Part shown: positions 34,737 to 49,933 of the stretch, piece by piece | Layout: each line of letters starts with the position of its first letter | How positions within the stretch are numbered: the first letter of the stretch is position 1 | NCBI GenBank assembly: GCA_944383165.1 | Contig: CALWON010000003.1 | Location: 1-64,000, forward strand | DNA: 64,000 nucleotides | Direction: 5' to 3' | DNA from: an uncultured Oscillospiraceae bacterium | Lineage (GTDB): Bacteria; Bacillota; Clostridia; Oscillospirales; Oscillospiraceae | Notes under the pieces: generated by a model | What the model was told of the DNA's origin: nothing | The model's input: only the letters and a program-made list of their open reading frames with translations | Database searches by the model: none | Made by a program: the position numbers and the translations under genes

Positions 34737-34776
34737 CTTTTTCTTTTTCCATAGATAAAATTCTCAACAACAAAAA

Positions 34777-34808
34777 AGAATCTCAAAGCCAAAAGGCTTT
34801 GAGATTCT
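34777..34808 (-). terminator. Terminator of the original tRNA gene, left at the attachment site
   Basis: A perfect 14-bp stem (34777-34790, 34795-34808) with an AAAA/TTTT loop. Read leftward, TTTTTTG follows. It begins exactly at the encoded CCA end of the tRNA fragment, so it is the native terminator of the tRNA into which the phage integrated. Confidence 0.85.
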
Positions 34809-34833
34809 GGCGCAGAAGGAGGGATTCGAACCC
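34808..34833 (-). other. Prophage attachment site: 3' end of a tRNA gene
   Basis: On the minus strand the sequence GGGTTCGAATCCCTCC followed by TTCTGCGCCA is a tRNA T-loop, the 3' half of the T-stem, the acceptor 3' strand (CTTCTGC), discriminator G and CCA. Upstream of the T-loop the sequence stops looking like tRNA (the T-stem 5' strand is imperfect), so only the 3' end is present. The integrase gene begins 70 bp away. This is the usual outcome of integration into a tRNA 3' end; the intact tRNA should sit at the far end of the prophage, outside the window. tRNA identity is not determined; its acceptor stem should begin GCAGAAG. Confidence 0.82.
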
Positions 34834-34904
34834 TGCTATAAAATGAATAAAAGCCTTGTGGTTCATATAGTGCTATTGAAGTATGTGTAAATCCGTGTGT
34901 AAAT

Positions 34905-35957
34905 TTATAGTTTTAATTTTTCCTCGAAATATGAGTTAATTAGAGTATCGGTTTCAGCTGCCCCTTCCGGGAACACATAGCCATAAATCTGTTTGAAGGT
35001 ATAATCGCTTGTCCAACCATTTCTAGCCATTGCGTATTTATCCACTACACCCAAAGCAATCATCACTGCTGCATTGGCGTGTCGGAGTCCATGAACAGTG
35101 GTGTCTGTGATACCAGCCTTTTTACACACCATGTGGACATGTCGACGAATGGTGTCTGGGTGCTGTCTGAACACACGACCAGACTGCCCATGGTATCTGT
35201 CTTTCAGTTTTTCTATGATATAACTGGGACAGGAGATTACTCGCTGGCTGCCCTCATTTTTGGGGTAATCTTTTAGAATCCATTGGTTGTCTTTATCTGG
35301 CACCAGAGCCCTGCGTACATCTACCGTTTTGTTCTCAAGGTCTACACAGTCCCAGCAAAGCCCAGCGATTTCGGACCGTCTCATTCCCAGCCATACTGCC
35401 ATAACGATGGGAAGCTCACAGGGGTCACCAATGGCACAATCAATCAGTTTTACAACCTCATCAGAACTGAGGTAAGCTAGTTTCTTTTTTTGTTTTTGAG
35501 GTAGTTTGATTCCAGTGAAAGTGATACCATAGTCTTTCAGCACAGCAGACAACAGTCCATAGGCATTTGCAATGGTTTTTGGAGAACAAGTGGCTGCATC
35601 TGTACTGATAGCTGCTTGTACATCCAGTCTTGTCAGAGTGTGAATTTCTCTGTCCATCAGCCCCTGGAAGCGATTACGGTGCATAATACCATAACCACGC
35701 AGCGTTGACGGGGACAACACGCCCTGTCCTGCATCCATATATACCTGTATGGCGTCACGCAAGGTAATACGGTCAGGACGCTTTTCTGCTTCAATCAGCC
35801 CGTTTTTCAGTGCTAGTGCTTTGGTATGAGCAACTTCAGGGTCTGCATCCACTACGCTGATCCGCTTCCCGTTGACCATGACTTGACATCTCCATGAGCC
35901 GGACGGGAGCTGCACAGGGGTGGGATTTGTGAGTTTCTTCTTTTTAGTTCGTCCCAT
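34905..35957 (-). CDS. int: Tyrosine recombinase integrase
   Basis: A 350-aa phage integrase. The N-terminal ~60 residues resemble an AP2-like arm-binding domain (PTPVQLPSGSWRCQVMVNGKRI). Residues about 65-155 are the SAM-like core-binding domain and the rest is the catalytic domain. The catalytic residues are visible: Arg in LGMRRSEIAGL, HxxR in HGLRHANA, and a C-terminal Tyr in TFKQIYGYVF. It reads toward the attachment site. A 17-bp palindrome shared with three other prophage loci lies 20 nt before its start codon. AAGGAGG precedes the ATG. Confidence 0.95.
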   Translation of the reverse strand: MGRTKKKKLTNPTPVQLPSGSWRCQVMVNGKRISVVDADPEVAHTKALALKNGLIEAEKRPDRITLRDAIQVYMDAGQGVLSPSTLRGYGIMHRNRFQGLMDREIHTLTRLDVQAAISTDAATCSPKTIANAYGLLSAVLKDYGITFTGIKLPQKQKKKLAYLSSDEVVKLIDCAIGDPCELPIVMAVWLGMRRSEIAGLCWDCVDLENKTVDVRRALVPDKDNQWILKDYPKNEGSQRVISCPSYIIEKLKDRYHGQSGRVFRQHPDTIRRHVHMVCKKAGITDTTVHGLRHANAAVMIALGVVDKYAMARNGWTSDYTFKQIYGYVFPEGAAETDTLINSYFEEKLKL

Positions 35958-36057: not shown

Positions 36058-37056
36058 TTAATAGCAACGTTTACAAGGTTCATATCCTCTGGAGATTGCC
36101 TGTGAAATAGGAATTTGTCTTGGACCATCCATTCCACTACAACTTGAACTAGAATGATATTTACTACCACTTTTTGGAACCCAAACCATTTGCTCCTGTG
36201 GTTGTTGAGCAGCAGCCTGTTGTTCAGCTTCTTCAGCAGCTTGTTGTTGTGCAGCCTCCTCGGCAGCCTTTTTGGCAGCCTCTTCTTCGGCAGCCTTCTT
36301 GGCAGCTTCTTCTTCAGCAGCCTTTCTGGCAGCCTCTTCTTCAGCGGCTTTTCTGGCAGCTTCTTCTTCAGCAGCTTTTCTGGCAGCCTCTTCTTCAGCA
36401 GCCTTTCTGGCAGCTTCTTCAGCAGCTTTTCTGGCGGCTTCTTCTGCTGCGATACGTTCGCTGTCAATAATGGTGACTGTGACGGGGGTACTTTCCACAT
36501 TGCCAGCAGAAATCATAATTTCAGCAGTTCCTTCTGCTTTTGGAGTAATGATGCCAGTCAAAGAATTTCCGGTTTGTTTGGAAGTAAAGGTGAGGATATT
36601 TTGGTCTGAACTGACAAATTCAATCTTATCTGTGTTGGCTCCTTCTTCTGAGAAAAGAACAGGGATTGTGCTTGTCTCTTTCAGATCCAGCTCAATGGTC
36701 GAACCGCAGTCTAACGACAGAGAAGTGATTTTTGGTATGGAAGCACTTGAAAAAGTAATCAATGCACACAACACCAAACAGATATAAACCCGTTTTCTTT
36801 TATAAATAGGTTTTTGGTTAAATGTTCCTTTCAGTGTGAAGAAACATCCAAGAGCAACAAATAAAAATCCAAACGGATCGGGTATTAGCGCAATTAAAAG
36901 ACCAAAAACAACCAAAATCCATCCACCTATGGTACTCAGTTTGCTTGGTGGTTTATTGGAATCATTGTTTGATGATGGTGAGGGGTTATATACATAGTTT
37001 TGCCCTGTACCAGATGACTGCTCACTGTTTGTTCTTCTATTCATGTTAAATCCCAT
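36058..37056 (-). CDS. Prophage membrane protein with Ala/Glu/Lys repeats and a C-terminal CxxC motif
   Basis: A 332-aa protein I cannot assign to a known function. Layout: a Ser/Asn/Pro-rich N-terminus, membrane segments around residues 40-75 and 88-108, an Ig-like extracellular region (about 115-200, with [19 protein letters not shown], recalling bacterial Ig folds), then eight or so 9-residue units of the AEEEAARKA type (about 208-290, a predicted long charged helix) and a C-terminal motif with YHSSSSCSG and GYEPCKRCY. That last motif recurs at the C-termini of many unrelated Firmicutes proteins and may bind metal. It is in the lysogeny module, downstream of the Ltp-like lipoprotein. ATG 37056 is preceded by GAAAAGG. 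Confidence 0.7.
36215..36450. repeat. 27-bp tandem repeats inside the membrane protein gene
   Basis: Imperfect tandem units of 27 bp encode the 9-residue [18 protein letters not shown] repeats. The plus strand shows recurrent TCTTCTTCAGCAGC and TTTCTGGCAGC blocks. Such arrays may vary in number between strains. Confidence 0.75.
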
Positions 37057-37109
37057 ACAACACACGCCTTTTCTCTATTTTTATAGACTATGAAATGGGG
37101 AGTTTTTTA

Positions 37110-37592
37110 TTAGTAGCCTGCTGCGGTTACACCATATTCAGCCTGTTCTGCGGTGTAGCCCTCAAATTCCAGTTGTTCAAGCAAACCTTCTCTGGAGAAT
37201 GAGGAGATTTCAAGATAGGACTGAGCTGCTTTGGCTGCCTGTTCATTCCAATCGGCTCCACAATTGTCAGCTGCATAAGTTGCTTCCTCAGTGGTATAGC
37301 CCTCAAACTCCAACTGTTGAATCAGACCAGAATGGGAAAATGCGGAGACATCCAGATAAGTTTTAGCAGATTCTAACGCATTCTTTTCGCCCATGGTGAC
37401 ATCATCTGAACTTTCTGTGGACTGGCTGGATGCAGTGGAAGTGTTTGCAGCAGATTCACTTTGAGATACAGAAGATGCAGAACTTGTGGTAGCATCAGAA
37501 CCAGAAGTTGCAGAACCTTCTGAGCCAGTGCTGCTGCAAGCAGATAAGGCTAGCATAGAGGTACACAGCAAAAGGGCAAGGACTTTCTTCAT
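37110..37592 (-). CDS. ltp: Ltp-type surface lipoprotein, candidate superinfection exclusion factor
   Basis: A 160-aa lipoprotein. Signal peptide residues 1-18 end in the lipobox LSAC with Cys19 as the lipidation site, followed by a Ser/Thr-rich spacer (20-66). Two repeats follow (about 71-114 and 117-160), each with the pattern A-x-x-YLxxSxFSxxGLxxQLEFEGYTxEQAxYA. This is the host cell surface-exposed lipoprotein (Ltp) repeat. The founding Ltp, from Streptococcus thermophilus phage TP-J34, blocks DNA injection by related phages and also lies between the repressor and integrase genes. A similar role is inferred here. A 17-bp palindrome lies 22 nt before the start. Confidence 0.85.
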   Translation of the reverse strand: MKKVLALLLCTSMLALSACSSTGSEGSATSGSDATTSSASSVSQSESAANTSTASSQSTESSDDVTMGEKNALESAKTYLDVSAFSHSGLIQQLEFEGYTTEEATYAADNCGADWNEQAAKAAQSYLEISSFSREGLLEQLEFEGYTAEQAEYGVTAAGY

Positions 37593-37888: not shown

Positions 37889-38494
37889 TTAAAATTTTGC
37901 TCGAAGCTCTACAACACGTCCAATCACTCTGACGGGTAGCTGCTCAACTTCATCAGCGGAATAGAATTGAATATCGTATGCAGGATTCAGAGGGATAAGG
38001 GCTACACCATCCCTCTCATATTTTATCTTTTTTACAGTGGCACTTTCTCCATTCACCAAGGCAACAACAATATTTCCTGTTTCTGCATCGTTCTGTTTTC
38101 GGACAATAACCACATCTCCATCAGACATCTTTGGTTCCATACTCGAGCCTCTAATTCTAAGACCAAAATACTCACCGCTACTTGCCATATCTGCATCAAT
38201 TTCTTCATAGTCGATAATGTCCGTGATTGCTTCAATGGGTATCCCAGCAGAAACATTACCAAGAACAGGAATAAAGTTTCGTTTTGGAACATCATCATTT
38301 CCAATTAGATAATCAGTGGATACATCAAATAACTCTGCTAGTTTCTTTAACTGCTCATTATCTATTTTTGATTTACCTGTCTCCCAATATGAATAACCAT
38401 TTTGGGTTATACCAATGATCTTCGCAACTTCTGTTTGGGTGAGACCTTTTGCTTTTCTAGCTTGTTTTAAGTTATTCAAAATATCACCCCTCAT
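37889..38494 (-). CDS. CI/LexA-like phage repressor (HTH plus S24 peptidase)
   Basis: A 201-aa lysogeny repressor. Residues 8-65 form an XRE helix-turn-helix (KGLTQTEVAKIIGITQNGYS). Residues 75-200 form the S24 self-cleavage and dimerisation domain, with nucleophile Ser118 (GSSMEP), general base Lys155 (SATVKKI) and an Ala83-Gly84 cleavage site (VSAGIP). SOS induction through RecA-stimulated self-cleavage is expected. The -10 of its promoter ends 6 nt before ATG 38494, so the mRNA may be leaderless like lambda cI. An internal TTG at 38479 with GAGGGGTGAT before it is an alternative start giving the canonical MNNLKQARKAKG. Confidence 0.93.
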   Translation of the reverse strand: MRGDILNNLKQARKAKGLTQTEVAKIIGITQNGYSYWETGKSKIDNEQLKKLAELFDVSTDYLIGNDDVPKRNFIPVLGNVSAGIPIEAITDIIDYEEIDADMASSGEYFGLRIRGSSMEPKMSDGDVVIVRKQNDAETGNIVVALVNGESATVKKIKYERDGVALIPLNPAYDIQFYSADEVEQLPVRVIGRVVELRAKF

Positions 38495-40542: not shown

Positions 40543-41400
40543 ATGGATATACTCCAATGCAAAACAGAACTTGCTGTAGAGTACGGAATTGATGTGGCAA
40601 TCTTCATACATAACATTGTGTTTTGGGTGGAGAAAAACATGGCAAACGATACCAACTTCAAAGAAGGGCGGTACTGGACGTACAACAGCATGGAGGCATA
40701 CTGCCAGCTATATCCCATGTGGTCAAGAGACCAGATTAAACGAATCATTGCAAAGTGCAAAGAAAATGGTTTGTTGATTGTGGGTGAGTTTAATTCTGAC
40801 CGGAGAGATCGCACAAAATGGTACTCTCCCAGCGACAGAATTCTTGAGATTTATGGGGTGTGCAAAACCGCCCATTGCATTGGGCGAAATCGCCAAATGC
40901 ATTTGGCAGAATCGCCCACTGCATCGGGCGAAAACGCCACACCATTACCAGATAGTAATACTACAGATAATATACCCCCCTATAGTCCCCCCACTTGTGG
41001 GGGGACAGGGACGGAAAAGAAAAAGCGTAAATACGATTTGGACGAGGAAGCCAAGGCAACCCTGAGAGACTATGTAGGGCAAGACAGGGAACTTGCCAAA
41101 GCATTGGGGGCATTCATTGACATCCGTATTAAACTGCGAGCAGTGCATAGCCAACACGCAGTAAAGCTGCTTCTGGGAAAGTTGGATAGTCTGTCCAATG
41201 GAGATAGGCAGATGAAGCTACAGCTCATTGCTCAGTCAGTGGAGAACAGCTGGAAGGGACTATTTCCGTTGAAGGGGTGCAGAGAACAGAAAAAGCAAAC
41301 CACTCCAACCAACTTGTACCAACCAAAGATACTACCTGTCAGACCTCACCACTATGAGGTCATAAATGGGGAGGAAAGGATTGTATACGATGATAGATGA
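40543..41400 (+). CDS. Phage replication initiator (replisome organizer-like), with internal iterons
   Basis: A 285-aa protein. Residues 1-100 form a winged-helix replication domain of the Firmicutes phage type (YWTYNSMEAYCQLYPMWSRD, then QIKRIIAKCKENGLL). Residues 105-165 are a low-complexity linker and 165-285 a helical C-terminal part that likely recruits the helicase. The linker DNA holds three palindromic iterons at exact 22-bp spacing (40869-40930), as lambda O carries ori inside its gene. DnaB helicase follows with a short overlap, so initiator and helicase are coupled. AAGGAGG precedes the ATG. Confidence 0.78.
   Translation: MDILQCKTELAVEYGIDVAIFIHNIVFWVEKNMANDTNFKEGRYWTYNSMEAYCQLYPMWSRDQIKRIIAKCKENGLLIVGEFNSDRRDRTKWYSPSDRILEIYGVCKTAHCIGRNRQMHLAESPTASGENATPLPDSNTTDNIPPYSPPTCGGTGTEKKKRKYDLDEEAKATLRDYVGQDRELAKALGAFIDIRIKLRAVHSQHAVKLLLGKLDSLSNGDRQMKLQLIAQSVENSWKGLFPLKGCREQKKQTTPTNLYQPKILPVRPHHYEVINGEERIVYDDR
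40869..41005. other. Candidate phage replication origin inside the initiator gene
   Basis: Three 18-bp elements of the form CGCCCA-N6-TGGGCG start at 40869, 40891 and 40913, exactly 22 bp apart; the middle one contains the perfect palindrome GCCAAATGCATTTGGC (40892-40907). A degenerate fourth (CGCCACACC) starts at 40935, again 22 bp on. An AT-rich stretch (40941-40985) follows, then a strong hairpin TCCCCCCAC-TT-GTGGGGGGA (40986-41005). Iterons, then an unwinding region, then a hairpin is classical origin layout. Confidence 0.68.
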
Positions 41401-42724
41401 TTTTTTTAATGCAGAGTGTGCTGTACTTGGTTCCATTCTCGTTGATCCTAGATGCCTGCCAAAAGTTCGGGATAGTTTGAAAGTGGAAGATTTTTCGATG
41501 CTTTTGAACCAACAAATATACACTGCCATTTTGGAATTGGACAAAGAAGGGGTGTGTGACCCTGTGGCTTTGTTCAACAAAGTAAATCAAAACGGTGTTA
41601 TTTGCCCTGCAAACTATTTTACAGAACTCATGGATGCAACTCTAACCGCAGCCAATGTGGACTTGTATGTGGACATTGTGAAAAAACAAGCAGGGAAAAG
41701 GGCATTGACCAAACTGATGGAAGAAGCAACCGTAAAGTTGCAAGAATCAGATTCAGCGGATGATGCACAAGACTTACTCAGCCGTGGTCTGGATGCCGTC
41801 CGACAGCAAAGGTTCAGCAATGGAATCATTACACCACAGCAGGCAGCCCTGATTTTTATAGACCACCGACTGAAAGTGGACAGTGGGGAACAGGGCGGAT
41901 ATGTAAAAACAGGCTATCAGGATTTGGATTACCTGCTGGGTGGCGGTATGGTTTGTGGTGGCATGTATATTTTGGCAGCCCGTCCTGGTATGGGCAAGAC
42001 CACAATGGGAATCAATATTGCGGAACGTGTAGCCGAGACAAAAAACAAACCTGTGCTGTTTGTTAGCCTGGAGATGTCTACCAAGGAAGTTCAGGCGAAG
42101 CGAGTTGCTAAAATCAGTGGAATTCCATACAACAAGGTGCTGATGGGGAAGCTGGACGAATACCAGTGTAACAAAGTAAATAAGGCTCTGGACCAAATCA
42201 AGGATAGTCAAATCCATTTCAACGGGAAAGAGACAATAACTACTGACGAAATCTATACGTTGGCAAGATGCATTTCTGGGGTGTGCTTGGTGGTCATTGA
42301 TTATCTGGGGATCATTTCTCCTGGAGTCAGCATAAAAAAATCAAGATATGAGTACACATCAGAAATTTCAGGAGACATCAAGAGAATGGCTCGAAAACTG
42401 GAAGTGCCAGTGCTCACCCTTGCCCAGCTGAACCGTGAAACAGAGGGCAGAAAAGACCATCTACCACAACTATCAGACTTACGAGATTCTGGTGCCATTG
42501 AACAAGATGCAGATGGAATTATCTTTTTGCACCGAGAGGCTTATTACCGACCGGAAGAAAAGAGCGATATTGAGACGTTGAGTGTGATTGTGGCAAAAAA
42601 CCGACATGGCTCTACTGGCAAATGTGAGCTGCAATTCGCTGTAGCCAATGGGAAGATTGTGAGTGAGTCCAAAGACCCACGACAGAGGTGGGGAGAGATG
42701 ATCGAGAGAGGTGAATGGCCATGA
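41390..42724 (+). CDS. Replicative DNA helicase, DnaB family
   Basis: A 444-aa hexameric helicase. The N-terminal DnaB domain (1-105) has NAECAVLGSILVDPR. The RecA-like C-terminal domain has the Walker A motif ARPGMGKTT near residue 200, the SLEMS motif, VIDYLGI (Walker B) and LAQLNRETEGR, then SDLRDSGAIEQDAD. Length is normal. The open frame begins at 41366, but ATG 41390, overlapping the initiator stop, gives the standard N-terminus. The phage therefore brings its own helicase. Confidence 0.95.
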   Translation: MIDDFFNAECAVLGSILVDPRCLPKVRDSLKVEDFSMLLNQQIYTAILELDKEGVCDPVALFNKVNQNGVICPANYFTELMDATLTAANVDLYVDIVKKQAGKRALTKLMEEATVKLQESDSADDAQDLLSRGLDAVRQQRFSNGIITPQQAALIFIDHRLKVDSGEQGGYVKTGYQDLDYLLGGGMVCGGMYILAARPGMGKTTMGINIAERVAETKNKPVLFVSLEMSTKEVQAKRVAKISGIPYNKVLMGKLDEYQCNKVNKALDQIKDSQIHFNGKETITTDEIYTLARCISGVCLVVIDYLGIISPGVSIKKSRYEYTSEISGDIKRMARKLEVPVLTLAQLNRETEGRKDHLPQLSDLRDSGAIEQDADGIIFLHREAYYRPEEKSDIETLSVIVAKNRHGSTGKCELQFAVANGKIVSESKDPRQRWGEMIERGEWP

Positions 42725-42917: not shown

Positions 42918-43700
42918 ATGAAAACATTTGCAATGATGAACATGAAAGGCGGAGTGGGCAAGACTGTGACCACCATCCAGCTTGCTACCATCTTGACCAA
43001 CCAATATGGAAAAACCGTCCTAGTAGTAGATTGTGATGGGCAGTGCAATTTGAGTCGGTTCTATGCTGCTGACTACATAGATGATATGACGGTGGCTAAT
43101 GTCATGGAGAGAAGCTGCGAAAGCTACTGGAAAGACAATGTGCAGCTGGTACGCCCTAATCTATATCTATTGCCAGCCAGTAGAGATTTATACCGCTTGG
43201 ATTTGGCAGCCATGCAAAATGGCAATGCCCATATCAATGCATTACGAAATTTTGTGGAAGTGGTGGCAGAGGATCAGGAGGTGGATGTGGTGTTGTTTGA
43301 CTGCCCTCCAGGATTTACAGCAGCCAGTACAGCTGCACTGATTGCAGCAGATGAGCTGATTATCCCCATTTTGATGGACGGCTTCTCCATTGAGGGTATG
43401 GCAGAGATGGCACTGCAAGTAGAATCCATGAGACAGGTCAATCCACGGCTAAAGGTAGCAGGTGTATTGATTAACCAGTGGCACCGCTGCCAGGCGGTGG
43501 AACAGGGAGAGAAACTGCTGCGAGAAATGAGGCTGCTGCCTGTGTTCCGGCAGGTGATCCGGCGAACAGACAAGGTACCAGAAAGTACATTTGTGAAACA
43601 GCCCGTGATGGATTACTCCTATCGCAGTGCAGCAAGTCAGGACTATCGACTGCTGGCACAAGAGATTTTTGGGGAGGTGCCAGACAATGGCAGCCTTTGA
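42918..43700 (+). CDS. parA: ParA-family partition ATPase
   Basis: A 260-aa Soj/ParA-type ATPase without an N-terminal HTH. The deviant Walker A KGGVGKT is at residues 10-16, the second signature VLVVDCDGQCNLSR follows, and FDCPPGF holds the Walker B region. Such proteins form a DNA-bound gradient that moves ParB-parS complexes. It is followed by parB with a 14-nt overlap, the normal par operon order. Its presence in an integrating prophage is notable and suggests a plasmid-like phase or a regulatory role. Confidence 0.93.
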   Translation: MKTFAMMNMKGGVGKTVTTIQLATILTNQYGKTVLVVDCDGQCNLSRFYAADYIDDMTVANVMERSCESYWKDNVQLVRPNLYLLPASRDLYRLDLAAMQNGNAHINALRNFVEVVAEDQEVDVVLFDCPPGFTAASTAALIAADELIIPILMDGFSIEGMAEMALQVESMRQVNPRLKVAGVLINQWHRCQAVEQGEKLLREMRLLPVFRQVIRRTDKVPESTFVKQPVMDYSYRSAASQDYRLLAQEIFGEVPDNGSL

Positions 43701-45102
43701 TATTGGTTCTTTTGCAAAGAGCCTACAACAGCAAAGTGTTCAAGTTGAACACCGAGACCAAATAGAGTACATTCCATTGGACAAGATAGACCAAGATCCA
43801 AATAATTTTTATTCTCTCAGTGGTATTGAAGAATTGGCAGACAACATTTGCTTGTGTGGGCTTCAACAGCCCATTCGAGTGCGAGATGGTGAGAATGGGC
43901 ATGTGATTGTGGTATCAGGACACCGCAGGCGGGCTGCCATAGAGCTTCTGGCAAAAGAAGATGAGAAGTGGAAGCAGGTACCCTGCATCCGTGAAACTGG
44001 TGGTTCAGATGCTATGAATGAGCTGAGACTGATTTATGCCAATGCATCCACCAGAGAGCTTACTTCTGCGGAGAAAGCAAAGCAGATTGAGCGGACAGAA
44101 GCCCTGCTTTATCAACTCCAGCAAGAGGGCATGGAGTTTCCTGGGCGAATGCGTGACCACGTTGCTGAGGTATGCCAAGTATCTGGGGCAAAAATCGCAA
44201 AGTTGAAAGTCATTCAGGATAGGCTCCTCTCTGAGTGGTGGAGCCTGTTTGAAGAAAATAAGCTGGCAGAGCAGACCGCCTATGCACTGGCAAGAATGGA
44301 ACAGGACTTGCAAAAGCGAATTTATGATGTCAATCCATCTATCGGTGGAGCTGCTGCGGAGCGAATTTTAAAAATGGCAGAGAACGGAACTACTTGGGAG
44401 CCAACATTCAGGTGTCCAGATGGAACCCCATGCCACAGAGGAAACCAGTTCCTAAAACATGACATTAAAAAGTACTTCGACCCTTGTAAGGGAGAACGGT
44501 GCTGTCTAAATTGCCAAGAGGCAAAAACAGAGTATTATTCTTGTAACCACATGTGCTCAAAGGCAAGAGCATTGCGTAGTGAATCTGAAAATAAAAAGAC
44601 ACAGACAGAGCAGGAGAGGAAGGAGGAGCAACAGAGGCTATATCGAGGGCAGATACAGGCAAGTGCCCAGCGATTAGTGCGAGCAGCGGATTGTTCAGGT
44701 GTGTCTGATGATACAAAGTTAAAAGTAGACAGATTTGGAGTTGATTTAACTGTAGGTGAATTAAGACAGTATGCCATAGGAGAGTTTGGAGACAGGCACT
44801 TTTATTATAATGATCTGGCTCCTGGTAACATTGGCTTCCCACGAGAAATTGCAGCAGCTTTGCGGTGTACTACAGATTATGTACTTGGAGTGTCGGATCG
44901 TTTGGACGATAAGCCGACTTGGAAATCCCCAGATGAGTGTCCAGAGGATGGGCAGATTGTGTATGCAAAAATCAGGATTGATGATGCAGAGATAGAAGTG
45001 CGGGACGTTGTGACATACCAATTTGGTCAGTGGTTTTTCAGGCGTAGTCAGAACCCTGTGGAGGGAACTGTTTTAGGCTGGTTTCCTCTGCCAATGGATT
45101 AA
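43687..45102 (+). CDS. parB: ParB/Spo0J-family protein with an unusual C-terminal extension
   Basis: A 471-aa protein. The N-terminal ParB/sulfiredoxin-like CTP-binding fold (about 25-125) has IPLDKIDQDPNNF, the ELADNI helix, GLQQPIRVR and VVSGHRRRAA (the GxRR box). A helical HTH region follows (about 140-230). Unlike chromosomal Spo0J (~280 aa), it continues for ~240 residues with a Cys-rich cluster (CPDGTPC, CKGERCCLNC, YYSCNHMC; possible zinc or Fe-S site, about 250-300) and a C-terminal part resembling phage proteins. Start ATG 43687 has GGGGAGGTG upstream and overlaps parA. A copy of the dispersed palindrome lies in codons 17-22. Confidence 0.88.
   Translation: MAAFDIGSFAKSLQQQSVQVEHRDQIEYIPLDKIDQDPNNFYSLSGIEELADNICLCGLQQPIRVRDGENGHVIVVSGHRRRAAIELLAKEDEKWKQVPCIRETGGSDAMNELRLIYANASTRELTSAEKAKQIERTEALLYQLQQEGMEFPGRMRDHVAEVCQVSGAKIAKLKVIQDRLLSEWWSLFEENKLAEQTAYALARMEQDLQKRIYDVNPSIGGAAAERILKMAENGTTWEPTFRCPDGTPCHRGNQFLKHDIKKYFDPCKGERCCLNCQEAKTEYYSCNHMCSKARALRSESENKKTQTEQERKEEQQRLYRGQIQASAQRLVRAADCSGVSDDTKLKVDRFGVDLTVGELRQYAIGEFGDRHFYYNDLAPGNIGFPREIAAALRCTTDYVLGVSDRLDDKPTWKSPDECPEDGQIVYAKIRIDDAEIEVRDVVTYQFGQWFFRRSQNPVEGTVLGWFPLPMD
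43736..43752. repeat. Dispersed 17-bp palindrome, copy 3 (inside parB)
   Basis: GTGTTCAAGTTGAACAC, the reverse complement of the other copies, 49 nt into the parB coding sequence. An internal parS in or next to par genes is common in ParB systems. Confidence 0.85.
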
Positions 45103-45727: not shown

Positions 45728-46152
45728 GGGAAGTTTTGTTTATTCATCTTGATAGCGACCAGTCATTAGAGAAGCTTCAGGAGTTGAGAGATTTTTATTT
45801 GGATTCCATTCAAAAAGGCGTTTGTATTTTGCCAGCAGGGGTCAGTTGGGAGGTGGAAATGCTCAGCACATCTCCTGTGGTCAATCAACTGGCAAAAGAG
45901 AGAAAAGCCAAAGGAGATGTCTCACTGCTCAAATCTGTTAGTCACAAAGAAAAGGATGCCATTTTGGAAAAATTGCAACAGTACAGAGAGAAAGTTGGAG
46001 CACCCAGTTTTGCATGTCTGGCTCAGAAATATGGAAAAGGGGATAAGGAATTTAGAGAGGATATTCTAAGAGATTTGTTTTTTTATCGCATCAAAGTCTC
46101 AGACAGGGTGTGGATTAAGTTGGGCGAGGCACTGGAAGCGGAGGGGATTTGA
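45694..46152 (+). CDS. Hypothetical phage protein, 152 aa
   Basis: Unrecognised 152-aa protein, mostly helical and charged (VREVLFIHLDSDQSLEKLQE, then KEKDAILEKLQQYREKVG). The first 35 residues resemble short phage proteins that encode a beta-strand and a fixed-length N-terminal unit. GAAAGGGG lies before the ATG. It overlaps the HUH gene region by a few bases. Confidence 0.6.
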   Translation: MDNAAVHECSVREVLFIHLDSDQSLEKLQELRDFYLDSIQKGVCILPAGVSWEVEMLSTSPVVNQLAKERKAKGDVSLLKSVSHKEKDAILEKLQQYREKVGAPSFACLAQKYGKGDKEFREDILRDLFFYRIKVSDRVWIKLGEALEAEGI

Positions 46153-46157
46153 ACCTC

Positions 46158-46919
46158 ATGAGCAAAACCATAAAGAGAGTCAAAAGTGGCAGACTGGTAT
46201 CTGCTGTTCTGTACTCTATGCCCTCTCCAAGTGACAGCCCAAAGGTCAGACAGCAGAAACAGAAAACCAGCTCACTGGCACGGGAAAAACTCAATGCCAG
46301 AACCTCATTCCAAAAGCTGGAGCGAACCCTGGCAGCCAACTTTTCAGATGGAGATGTATATCTCACGCTGACCTATGATGATAAGCACCTGCCTGACAGT
46401 CGCTCCAAGGCTGTCAGGCGTATCCGCTCTTTCCTTTCTAAATTGAGGGCAGAGAGAAAAAAACGGAAAGAGACATTGAAGTACATTTATGTGACGGAGG
46501 GGAACCATCCAGGGGGACGGCTACACCACCATGTGGTACTGAATGGAACTGGTAAAGACTTACAGGAAATCAGGCGGCTTTGGATTTATGGTGAGAATGT
46601 GGAAATCAGGCGTTTGAAATTCCATCGTGATTATACTTATGAGGATTTGGCAAGCTATCTGACCAAGGAACCAAGAGATTGGGGGCACCCAAAAGTAGGG
46701 GAACGGACATGGACTCCGTCGGTGGGACTTGCAAAACCTGTGGTGGAGACAGAAACAGTGTCTGACTACCTCACATTGACTGCACCACCGGAAGCAATCA
46801 TCCTTGCAAAAGAAGGACCAGTTATGACAGTCTTTGGTGAGTTTACATGGATTAAATATTTGTTGCCAGAAATACCCAAAAAGACAAAGCGGGCAAGACG
46901 GCAGAGGAAGAAAGAATAG
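46158..46919 (+). CDS. HUH-family rolling-circle Rep-like endonuclease
   Basis: A 253-aa basic protein with all three HUH motifs: motif 1 VYLTLTYDD (68-75), motif 2 RLHHHVVLNG with His123-125, and motif 3 EDLASYLTKEP with the catalytic Tyr167. This is the pattern of the inovirus G2P/microvirus replication proteins and related plasmid Reps, which nick DNA and link to the 5' end. The C-terminus is very basic. A TTG at 46149 is an alternative start. It lies between phage replication/partition genes and the packaging genes, with a hairpin-rich candidate nick region at 45384-45520. Confidence 0.82.
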   Translation: MSKTIKRVKSGRLVSAVLYSMPSPSDSPKVRQQKQKTSSLAREKLNARTSFQKLERTLAANFSDGDVYLTLTYDDKHLPDSRSKAVRRIRSFLSKLRAERKKRKETLKYIYVTEGNHPGGRLHHHVVLNGTGKDLQEIRRLWIYGENVEIRRLKFHRDYTYEDLASYLTKEPRDWGHPKVGERTWTPSVGLAKPVVETETVSDYLTLTAPPEAIILAKEGPVMTVFGEFTWIKYLLPEIPKKTKRARRQRKKE

Positions 46920-47552: not shown

Positions 47553-48116
47553 ATGGGCAAAGCGAAGAGAGCAGCCGACACATTGAGCGAGGTACCTGAG
47601 TGGGCAAACTCCACCGCCATTGCTAAGCTCATCGGCAAAGGCGTAAGACGGGTGCAGCAGCTGACACAGGATGGGATACTGGTCACAGAAGTGCCACCTG
47701 ATGGTAGAGCGAGAAAGTACCGCACCTGTGAGACTATCCAGCGTTACATTGCCCATGAAATAAAAAAATCCAGAAGTTCTGGTGACGGTACACGGCAAAA
47801 AGAGCTGGAGCTGAAAAAGCTGGAGGCAGAGGTGGAGCTGAAAGAGAGCCAAGGGCAGCTTCACAGGCTGAAAACAGCAATTGCTGAGGGAAAATATCTG
47901 GATAGTGTACAGGCAGGAGAGGAACTGGCAGAGTTTATGGAGGTTTTCCGCAACTTTGTCCATGCAATCCCAACCCGTATGGCAGGCAGTCTCCATGGAA
48001 CCGTGGATGCGGTCACAGTGCGAGCCATAGAAAAGACTATGCGGGATGAACTGGACAGTATGCTTGCATCCTTTGTGACTGCTGCCAGCTCCATCCATAG
48101 GGAGGGTAATCCATGA
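47553..48116 (+). CDS. terS: Terminase small subunit-like protein
   Basis: A 187-aa protein. An N-terminal Nu1-type winged helix (about 15-60: VPEWANSTAIAKLIGKGVRR, VQQLTQDGILVTEV) binds the packaging site. A charged coiled coil follows (about 80-115, RQKELELKKLEAEVELKE), then a C-terminal region for oligomerisation and TerL contact. The frame is open to 47406, but GGGAGG 8 nt before ATG 47553 fixes the start. Its stop overlaps the terL start. Confidence 0.85.
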   Translation: MGKAKRAADTLSEVPEWANSTAIAKLIGKGVRRVQQLTQDGILVTEVPPDGRARKYRTCETIQRYIAHEIKKSRSSGDGTRQKELELKKLEAEVELKESQGQLHRLKTAIAEGKYLDSVQAGEELAEFMEVFRNFVHAIPTRMAGSLHGTVDAVTVRAIEKTMRDELDSMLASFVTAASSIHREGNP

Positions 48117-49933
48117 GGGCATACCGACAAAAGCCATACACAGTAGCCCCATGGATTCTGCCAGCCATTGAAGTTCTGCGACCACGGGAGCGGCTCACTG
48201 TGTCCCAGTGGGCAGAGCGGTATCGGGTGCTGGATAAAAACTCTGCCATGCCAGGTGGGTGGCGTAATACAGTCACACCCTACTTGGTGGGCATTATGGA
48301 CGCATTCCAAGAGCCTGATATAGAGAAGATTGTCTTTGTAAAACCAACGCAGGTGGGCGGTACTGCCACTATGGAGAACATGCTGGGGTACATTATCAGC
48401 GAGGACCCTGCTCCCAGCATGGTGGTCTATCCCTCTGACAAACTGGTGGAATCCACAGTAGAGGCACGTATTGAGCCGATGATTGAGAACAGTGCACCAC
48501 TGGTAGCGAAGTACAAAAAACGGGAAAGCACCGCTCTCCGGCTAAAATTTATTTCCATGTTCCTCTACTTGACCGGAGCCAACAGCCCTGCCAACTTGGC
48601 AAGTAAAGCCATCCGCTATCTGTTTCTGGACGAGGTGGACAAGTATCCCGGGGCCTCAAAAAAGGAAGCTGACCCTGTATCCCTTGCCATAGAACGTACA
48701 AAAACCTTTGTTACCAACCGCAAAATCTATATGGCGTCCACACCAACAGTCAAGTCCGGTCATATCTGGAGAGCCAAAGAGGGGGCAGAGGAGGAGAGAC
48801 ACTATTTTGTGCCGTGCCCACACTGCCAAAATGACATTGAACTTAAATTCATGCAGTTGAAGTGGCCAAGCAAGGATGATGTGCCACTGGAGGCAGACCG
48901 AGCGGCCAGAGCGACATATGTCTGCCAGGAATGTGACTGCATCATTGAGGAACGGAACAAAATGGATATGCTGCGTAGGGGAAAGTGGAAGGCAGTCCGC
49001 ACCAGCAGCACCAGACCAACCAGTGTAGTATTCTGGCTGAACACTTTGTACTCCCCGTTTACTTCCTTTGCTGAGATTGCAAAAGAATTTATGGCCAGTA
49101 AAGATGACCCCGAAAAACTCCAGAACTTTGTCAACTCGTGGCTGGCTGAGCCATGGGAGGACACCAATCTGAAAACCAATGCCGAGATGGTGCTGGAGCG
49201 TCAGACCGATGTGCCAGAGTGGGTGCTGCCAGAGTGGACAAAGCTAGTGACAGCTGGTGTAGATGTGCAGGAGAACTGCCTCTATTGGAGTATTCGGGCA
49301 TGGGGTGACTATATGACCAGCCAGAATGTGGCACATGGGCAGGCGTTGTCTTTTGAACAGATTGAGGACATCATGAACATGAAACTGGGCAAAGCCTCTG
49401 GGGAAACAATGCTCATTCAGTTGGCACTGATAGACAGCGGAGACCAAACAGATGAGGTTTATGAGTTTTGTTATAAGAATTCTGATTGGGCATTGCCCAG
49501 CAAGGGTATGGACACCATGCTCTCCCATTATCGTCTGTCTACCATCAACAAAACCGGAAGTATTGCCAATGGTATGAACTTGGTACTGATGGACGTGGGA
49601 AAGTATAAAAGCCAGATTGCAGCACGGATGAAAAGACCAAACGGGAGAGGTTCTTGGATGGTACATCGTGACTGTGATATGGACTATGCCACACAGGTGA
49701 CGGCAGAACATCAGGTGGTAGAGCGAAAAAACGGCAAAGAAATCAAGCGGTGGGTGAAGAAAAGCACCCATGCGGACAACCACTATCTGGACTGTGAGGT
49801 AGGGGCTGCCGCTGCTGCGGATTTGTTGGGGGTAAGAACCCTGTTTTTACGGGAGAAAGAAGAAACAAAACAGGCAAAACCCACAAAACCAAAAGAGGAG
49901 TCGTGGGTAGAGCAAAATGATACTTGGGTTTAG
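48113..49933 (+). CDS. terL: Terminase large subunit, lambda GpA type
   Basis: A 606-aa packaging motor and nuclease. The N-terminal ATPase has a Walker A-like KPTQVGGTATM (near 75-85), Walker B LFLDEVDKYPG (near 170) and a zinc-finger-like CPHCQ...CQEC cluster (about 235-275) typical of GpA-like terminases. The C-terminal half is the nuclease, with VTAGVDVQENCLYW and LIDSGDQTDEVYEF supplying metal-binding Asp residues. GpA-type terminases cut at cos sites. Length is standard. Confidence 0.94.
   Translation: MRAYRQKPYTVAPWILPAIEVLRPRERLTVSQWAERYRVLDKNSAMPGGWRNTVTPYLVGIMDAFQEPDIEKIVFVKPTQVGGTATMENMLGYIISEDPAPSMVVYPSDKLVESTVEARIEPMIENSAPLVAKYKKRESTALRLKFISMFLYLTGANSPANLASKAIRYLFLDEVDKYPGASKKEADPVSLAIERTKTFVTNRKIYMASTPTVKSGHIWRAKEGAEEERHYFVPCPHCQNDIELKFMQLKWPSKDDVPLEADRAARATYVCQECDCIIEERNKMDMLRRGKWKAVRTSSTRPTSVVFWLNTLYSPFTSFAEIAKEFMASKDDPEKLQNFVNSWLAEPWEDTNLKTNAEMVLERQTDVPEWVLPEWTKLVTAGVDVQENCLYWSIRAWGDYMTSQNVAHGQALSFEQIEDIMNMKLGKASGETMLIQLALIDSGDQTDEVYEFCYKNSDWALPSKGMDTMLSHYRLSTINKTGSIANGMNLVLMDVGKYKSQIAARMKRPNGRGSWMVHRDCDMDYATQVTAEHQVVERKNGKEIKRWVKKSTHADNHYLDCEVGAAAAADLLGVRTLFLREKEETKQAKPTKPKEESWVEQNDTWV

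Follow-up and report, generated by a model that had tools for sequence, protein, structure and literature searches.

A probable replication origin inside the initiator gene of an Oscillospiraceae prophage, with iterons that covary with the predicted recognition helix

Known in-gene origins and the prophage locus

In phage lambda, the origin (oriλ) lies within the O gene and comprises several ~19-bp iterons, imperfectly inverted repeats that contain a stretch of A, with an AT-rich region after them (PMC7466680). In pSK41, the Rep boxes are located centrally in rep and encode a dispensable linker between the winged-helix, iteron-binding N-terminal domain and the C-terminal domain of Rep, and a pSK41/pPR9 chimera showed that iterons travel with the DNA-binding domain at the level of the module (PMC5703833). 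In the PLE satellites of Vibrio cholerae, the RepA_N DNA-binding domain and the origin vary together as one exchangeable module, with the C-terminal domain left in place (PMC8263062).

The locus considered here belongs to a tailed-phage prophage found within a 64-kb window (the whole stretch of DNA analysed, positions 1-64,000 of contig CALWON010000003.1, assembly GCA_944383165.1, from an uncultured Oscillospiraceae bacterium). The prophage carries an integrase (34905-35957, minus strand), a S24-type repressor (37889-38494, minus strand), a large terminase (48113-49933) and a replication initiator of 285 aa (40543..41400, plus strand) that matches the PHROG replication initiation families 11233 (6e-28), 6493 and 678. 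The 3' end of the initiator gene is overlapped by the start of the next open reading frame (41366 vs 41400), which encodes a phage DnaB-type replicative helicase (41366..42724, plus strand; Pfam DnaB_C 1e-72; phrog_19). An initiator with 99% identity was found in another contig, also labelled uncultured Oscillospiraceae bacterium.

The AlphaFold model of the initiator predicts a winged-helix domain (residues 1-104), a disordered linker (~110-161, pLDDT <50) and a helical C-terminal domain (residues 168-234, codons 41044..41244, plus strand). The linker is encoded by an iteron array, an AT-rich stretch and a hairpin, so that the placement of the array inside the initiator gene as the code for an inter-domain linker, proposed in a preliminary description, is well supported by the reading frame and the structure model; the recruitment of the helicase by the C-terminal domain, also proposed there, remains only inferred. 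This C-terminal domain, presumed to recruit the replisome, is exchanged among relatives independently of the DNA-binding domain. The best structural matches of the DNA-binding domain were 4pql, 4pt7 and 5kbj (Z of 9.9, 9.7 and 9.5 over 95 residues, rmsd 3.0), and the top one is the N-terminal, iteron-binding domain of RepA from staphylococcal plasmids, with ~12% sequence identity in the structural alignment; the lead is modest, since the next unrelated row reached a Z of 8.7. At the sequence level, no Pfam family was found for the window initiator at E 0.1, hence neither Phage_rep_O (PF04492) nor RepA_N, none of 36 relatives matched RepA_N at E 0.01, and a sequence search against solved structures gave nothing meaningful for the initiator.

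The locus resembles lambda O and oriλ in its in-gene iterons, which encode an inter-domain linker and have an AT-rich region beside them, but its initiator lacks a detectable Phage_rep_O domain, and it differs from oriλ by its regular 22-bp period, its C-tract hairpin and the presence of a DnaB-type helicase gene itself downstream. It shares with the pSK41-type RepA_N proteins the position of the sites inside the gene, where they encode a linker, and the winged-helix fold of the N-terminal domain, as seen in the top structural match, but it has no RepA_N Pfam match and sits in a tailed prophage with its own DnaB; the C-terminal domain of pSK41-type proteins binds the DnaG primase, and for the window initiator a helical C-terminal domain is predicted. 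Unlike the PLE origin, which is intergenic and covaries at the level of the module, the family described here has in-gene sites and covaries at two residues and two bases. The origin is inferred to function like oriλ and the pSK41 RepA_N origin, and by sequence it belongs to neither family. As far as could be checked, what is new is the code that links residues to bases, a regular period kept across phyla and a hairpin that does not depend on the reading frame.

The iteron array, its register and its relatives

Three 18-bp palindromes begin at 40869, 40891 and 40913 (8, 8 and 7 of 9 pairs) with an exact spacing of 22 bp. When all 63,939 window positions were scored for three 18-bp palindromes at this spacing, the triple at 40869-40930 ranked at the top with 23 of 27 pairs (runner-up 17), and its pattern is unique in the whole 2.38-Mb genome. 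The observed palindromy was matched by none of 20,000 synonymous recodings of the linker (the best reached 21 of 27 pairs) and by none of 20,000 mononucleotide shuffles. Since 22 is not a multiple of three, the three units occupy three different reading frames and the encoded protein has no repeat, which indicates that selection acts on the DNA. The three palindromes and the period given in the preliminary description are confirmed by the position scan, the recodings and the shuffles. The AT-rich stretch and the hairpin placed after the array are present as well; the degenerate fourth palindrome at 40935 turned out to be only a half-site (CGCC).

The natural limits of the unit were derived from homologues, by a register search that relies on the flanking bases and on arm pairing and not on the identity of the core bases 5-9. 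In relatives, a palindromic unit of 22 bp has AA at its centre, approximately CATTTGNCC-NAAN-GGNCAAATG; where the array takes its most common form, the final unit closes with ACC, just before TATACCAGATATAAACACAGATATAAACACAGATA. In this register the window reads, from 40878, CATTGGGCGAAATCGCCAAATG / CATTTGGCAGAATCGCCCACTG / CATCGGGCGAAAACGCCACACC, then ATTACCAGATA. A left half-site CGCCCATTG (40869..40877) is followed by iteron 1, CATTGGGCG-AAAT-CGCCAAATG (40878..40899), iteron 2, CATTTGGCA-GAAT-CGCCCACTG (40900..40921), and iteron 3, CATCGGGCG-AAAA-CGCCACACC (40922..40943), which ends in the conserved ACC before the AT-rich stretch. Pairing in this natural phase is incomplete (8/9, 6/9 and 5/9 for iterons 1 to 3), and the phase taken alone gives a synonymous p of 0.01. 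A site centred on TGCA, as originally proposed, is not sustained: by the homologue register the centre is AAAT, and TGCA is where one unit meets the next. One relative (L031) has its array in the same register but with other arms, CATTTCACC-AAAC-GGTGAAATG, and in a near-identical homologue of the window (L029) the search settled one unit upstream, leaving the half-site consensus unchanged. A higher-scoring series of AAAT-type palindromes at 34738 was rejected, being AT-rich hairpin sequence beside the integrase gene and no array.

About 220 relatives from several phyla were compared. A protein-only search found no close relatives in viral contigs, whereas alignments of the DNA-binding domain did find relatives: the search with this domain gave 160 loci (viral contigs and genomes) and later 86 further distinct domains, and in the later set 310 stretches encoded relatives, of which 80 were kept. 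Arrays occur in relatives from Clostridia, Bacteroidota, Rhodobacterales, Gastranaerophilales and others, most of them with a 22-bp-period array directly after the DNA-binding domain, followed by AT-rich 12-bp repeats, and with different half-sites. The best period was 22 in 98 of 143 relatives and 21, the next, in 11 (15 periods tested, 16-30); in about a third the best period is not 22, and some relatives, such as L045, show irregular spacing. Among homologues, the linker protein is 24-43% identical compared to 49-61% for the DNA-binding domain, and the palindromes are kept, mostly with period 22. The preliminary description had asked whether palindromes are conserved beyond codon constraint in homologues, and this is the case, as arrays persist while the linker protein changes.

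Some relatives share the C-terminal domain of the window but possess another DNA-binding domain, and with it another kind of repeat (CCGTTG/CAACGG in L035-L040 and CAAGACCCCCTTGACG in L042), indicating that the iterons travel with the DNA-binding domain; these relatives retain the AT-rich stretch and the C-rich hairpin. A TGCA-centred pattern searched in viral contigs returned chance matches in GC-rich genes, one different initiator group that has an in-gene array of its own, and one clear near relative (L014). The half-site pattern of the window brought up a different initiator-like family with its own in-gene array of unit CGGCACAAACGCCGAATGCAAA (L004, L005, L007, L010, L011, L013, L019, L022, L023 and L026). 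Separately, many Rhodobacterales genomes (L159-L195) carry near-identical initiator linkers and arrays, TTTGCCC-AAAT-GGGCAAA, across many genera of the Roseobacter group, a sameness that suggests a recent spread of the element.

The relation between protein and site was addressed by comparing the half-site consensus of each array (bases 4-9) with the aligned DNA-binding domains in 67 representatives less than 80% identical, using the mutual information of each domain column with half-site bases 5-9 against permutations. Two pairs stood out: residue 63 covaries with base 7 at a z of 13.6 and residue 66 with base 6 at a z of 13.1, against 5.1 for the next best pair; these z-scores were not corrected for phylogeny beyond dereplication. 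Lysine 63 goes with C7 (22/25), arginine 63 with A7 (14/20) and aspartate 63 with G7 (7/7), while arginine or lysine 66 goes with G6 (31/37) and glutamate 66 with C6 (13/13), a chemically sensible table that, as inferred from covariation, reads as a recognition code. In a hold-out of 27 phages, each less than 75% identical to the training set, the rule for residue 63 was correct in 10 of 13 cases (permutation p 0.0018) and that for residue 66 in 17 of 21 (0/5,000 permutations). Both residues lie at the start of a helix (62-74) in the AlphaFold model, which was made without the covariation data. In the window, the codons of this predicted recognition helix lie at 40726..40764 (plus strand), and D63 and K66 pair with bases 7 (G) and 6 (G) of the half-site TGGGCG, as the rules predict.

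Covariation and hold-out provide strong indirect evidence, in the absence of binding data, that each array is the binding site of the protein encoded by its own gene. The earlier proposal of an initiator-specific site model is likewise supported by the covariation of half-site and recognition helix, once its TGCA centre is corrected. As each initiator gene contains its own site, sequence alone can pair an initiator with its site, and ~95 dereplicated phages give a two-residue, two-base code that is open to simple binding assays and can help to locate origins in uncultured phages.

The AT-rich stretch and the C-tract hairpin

The array is followed by an AT-rich stretch, ATTACCAGATAGTAATACTACAGATAATATA (40944..40974), presumed to be a DNA-unwinding element by its position and by analogy with lambda. 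In relatives, this place is taken by 12-bp repeats (TAAACMAGATA), and in 57 arrays with a clear junction the 46 bases past the junction show 12-bp periodicity (self-identity 0.58 vs 0.34 shuffled). Because 12 is divisible by three and the frame hardly varies, selection on protein and on DNA cannot be separated for these repeats.

Directly 3' of the AT-rich stretch lies an element of the general form CCCCC-N-CCCCC-loop-GGGGG. In the window it consists of a first C-tract and spacer, CCCCCCTATA (40975..40984, plus strand), and a hairpin, GTCCCCCCAC-TT-GTGGGGGGAC (40985..41006, plus strand), whose stem is supported by covariation. A stem of 9 bp with a 2-nt loop was first proposed; around a 2-nt loop 10 pairs are possible, and the DNA fold (-9.8 kcal/mol) has 9 pairs that close a loop of 4 nt. 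The hairpin is an element separate from the array and occurs with other initiator types as well.

The element, as CCCCCNNNAGNCCCCCNNNGGGG, recurs in viral contigs. Among AT-flanked carriers in long frames, it is read in all three frames (at least 8, 14 and 17 cases), giving peptides such as PPKxPxGG-, PPIVPQGG- and TPYSPPEG-like ones, and for this reason it is not a protein motif. All 10 of the AT-flanked carriers tested, which were chosen by the authors, encode replication initiation, helicase-loader or primosomal proteins, as do 7 of 10 random picks among the remaining carriers whose frames reach 100 aa or more. The carrier proteins span different families (DUF1376, Phage_rep_O, HTH_36, phrog_270 and others). 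In 197 related host genomes the element was found twice, both times in phage-type initiator genes, with no match to the reversed control pattern. The base of the stem covaries (T-A / C-G), being paired in 85 of 116 dereplicated sequences vs 43 expected, and the orientation of the hairpin relative to the gene is fixed. Within the window's own domain family, the hairpin lies within 60 bp in only 10 of 136 cases by a relaxed pattern, at Flavonifractor- and Oscillospiraceae-like loci.

No Rfam family was found for the hairpin above threshold; sub-threshold matches to whalefall-1 (16.8 bits vs a cut-off of 37) and to a tick-borne flavivirus stem-loop were rejected as chance. The element also appears undescribed in the open-access literature searched, although only openly licensed PMC papers were covered and this absence is weak evidence. 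A reading of CTATAG in the element as primase start triplets was abandoned because such triplets are missing from the common variant CCAAAG. A bolder reading, for which the evidence weighs no more for than against, is that CCCCCYNWAGYCCCCC-loop-GGGGGRC constitutes an undescribed phage-origin module on opened DNA just beyond the AT-rich stretch, common to non-homologous initiators. If so, these origins would be assembled from exchangeable parts, initiator-specific iterons and a general hairpin. The presence of a frame-independent, covarying hairpin in unrelated initiator genes raises the question of which host or phage factor reads it.

Proposed mechanism, rival explanations and neighbouring genes

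Sequence shows the array and its period, the link between array and recognition residues, the AT-rich repeats in relatives, the covariation within the hairpin and the order of the genes. They very likely represent the theta-type origin of the prophage, embedded in its own initiator gene, although binding, melting, helicase recruitment and origin activity are all inferred. In this model, the initiator, probably as dimers, would bind the palindromic units of 22 bp, whose spacing of two helical turns puts them on the same face of the DNA, with residues 63 and 66 of the winged helix reading half-site bases 7 and 6. The resulting complex would strain and then melt the adjacent AT-rich stretch, and the C-terminal domain, tethered by the flexible linker for which the origin DNA codes, would recruit the DnaB-type helicase of the phage, the product of the gene just downstream. 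The hairpin, which borders the AT-rich stretch on its far side, may be a further origin module that does not depend on the initiator; it might serve for loading or priming on the opened strand or mark where melting stops, any such role being inferred.

It could be argued that the repeats reflect selection on the linker protein or low-complexity drift without any DNA site, given that the region is coding and that the linker is a low-confidence, flexible and tolerant segment. This is practically ruled out: a 22-bp period with units in three frames cannot repeat in the protein, synonymous recoding never attains the observed palindromy, arrays persist although the linker protein changes faster than the DNA-binding domain, and the half-sites covary with the recognition residues. 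It is also improbable to a high degree that the array is an operator through which the protein represses or autoregulates its own gene from internal sites while replication starts elsewhere. Palindromes bound by a winged-helix protein would suit a repressor too, and the REP_ORF2-G2P protein encoded at 46149-46919 could use another origin; however, the arrays lie ~300 bp into the gene, usually with an AT-rich stretch of 12-bp repeats after them, the protein matches replication initiation families and is encoded next to the DnaB gene, and the solved structure that it most resembles belongs to a plasmid initiator that binds iterons.

For the hairpin only, it remains possible that it acts in the mRNA, by affecting translation, stability or attenuation of the transcript that carries initiator and helicase, rather than in the replication of DNA. 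A covarying stem found in any frame suits RNA as well as DNA, and its orientation with respect to the gene is constant; on the other hand, it recurs right after AT-rich stretches within many non-homologous replication genes, without an Rfam family above threshold and without a terminator-like T run.

Apart from the in-gene origin, which remains the preferred reading, other genes of the prophage deserve mention. A second replication protein is encoded at 46149-46919 (plus strand; phrog_3584, E 3e-58; Pfam REP_ORF2-G2P, E 6e-14), a rolling-circle-type Rep related to those of small ssDNA phages, 5 kb past the theta-type initiator; it might possibly use another origin, which calls for caution on where and how replication starts. 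Directly after the helicase gene lie ParA- and ParB-like genes (42918-45102), a pair that suggests a partition system and, possibly, that the prophage can exist in a plasmid-like state. Next to the integrase gene, at 34780-34845, a GGCGCAGAAGGAGGGATTCGAACCC stretch resembles the 3' end of a tRNA gene and is a likely attachment site, with no complete tRNA found in the window by ARAGORN. Finally, a 335-residue protein with long AARKAAEEE repeats (36058-37065, minus strand) adjoins a lipoprotein gene (37110-37592) with a Lipoprotein_Ltp domain, a domain that occurs in superinfection-exclusion proteins.
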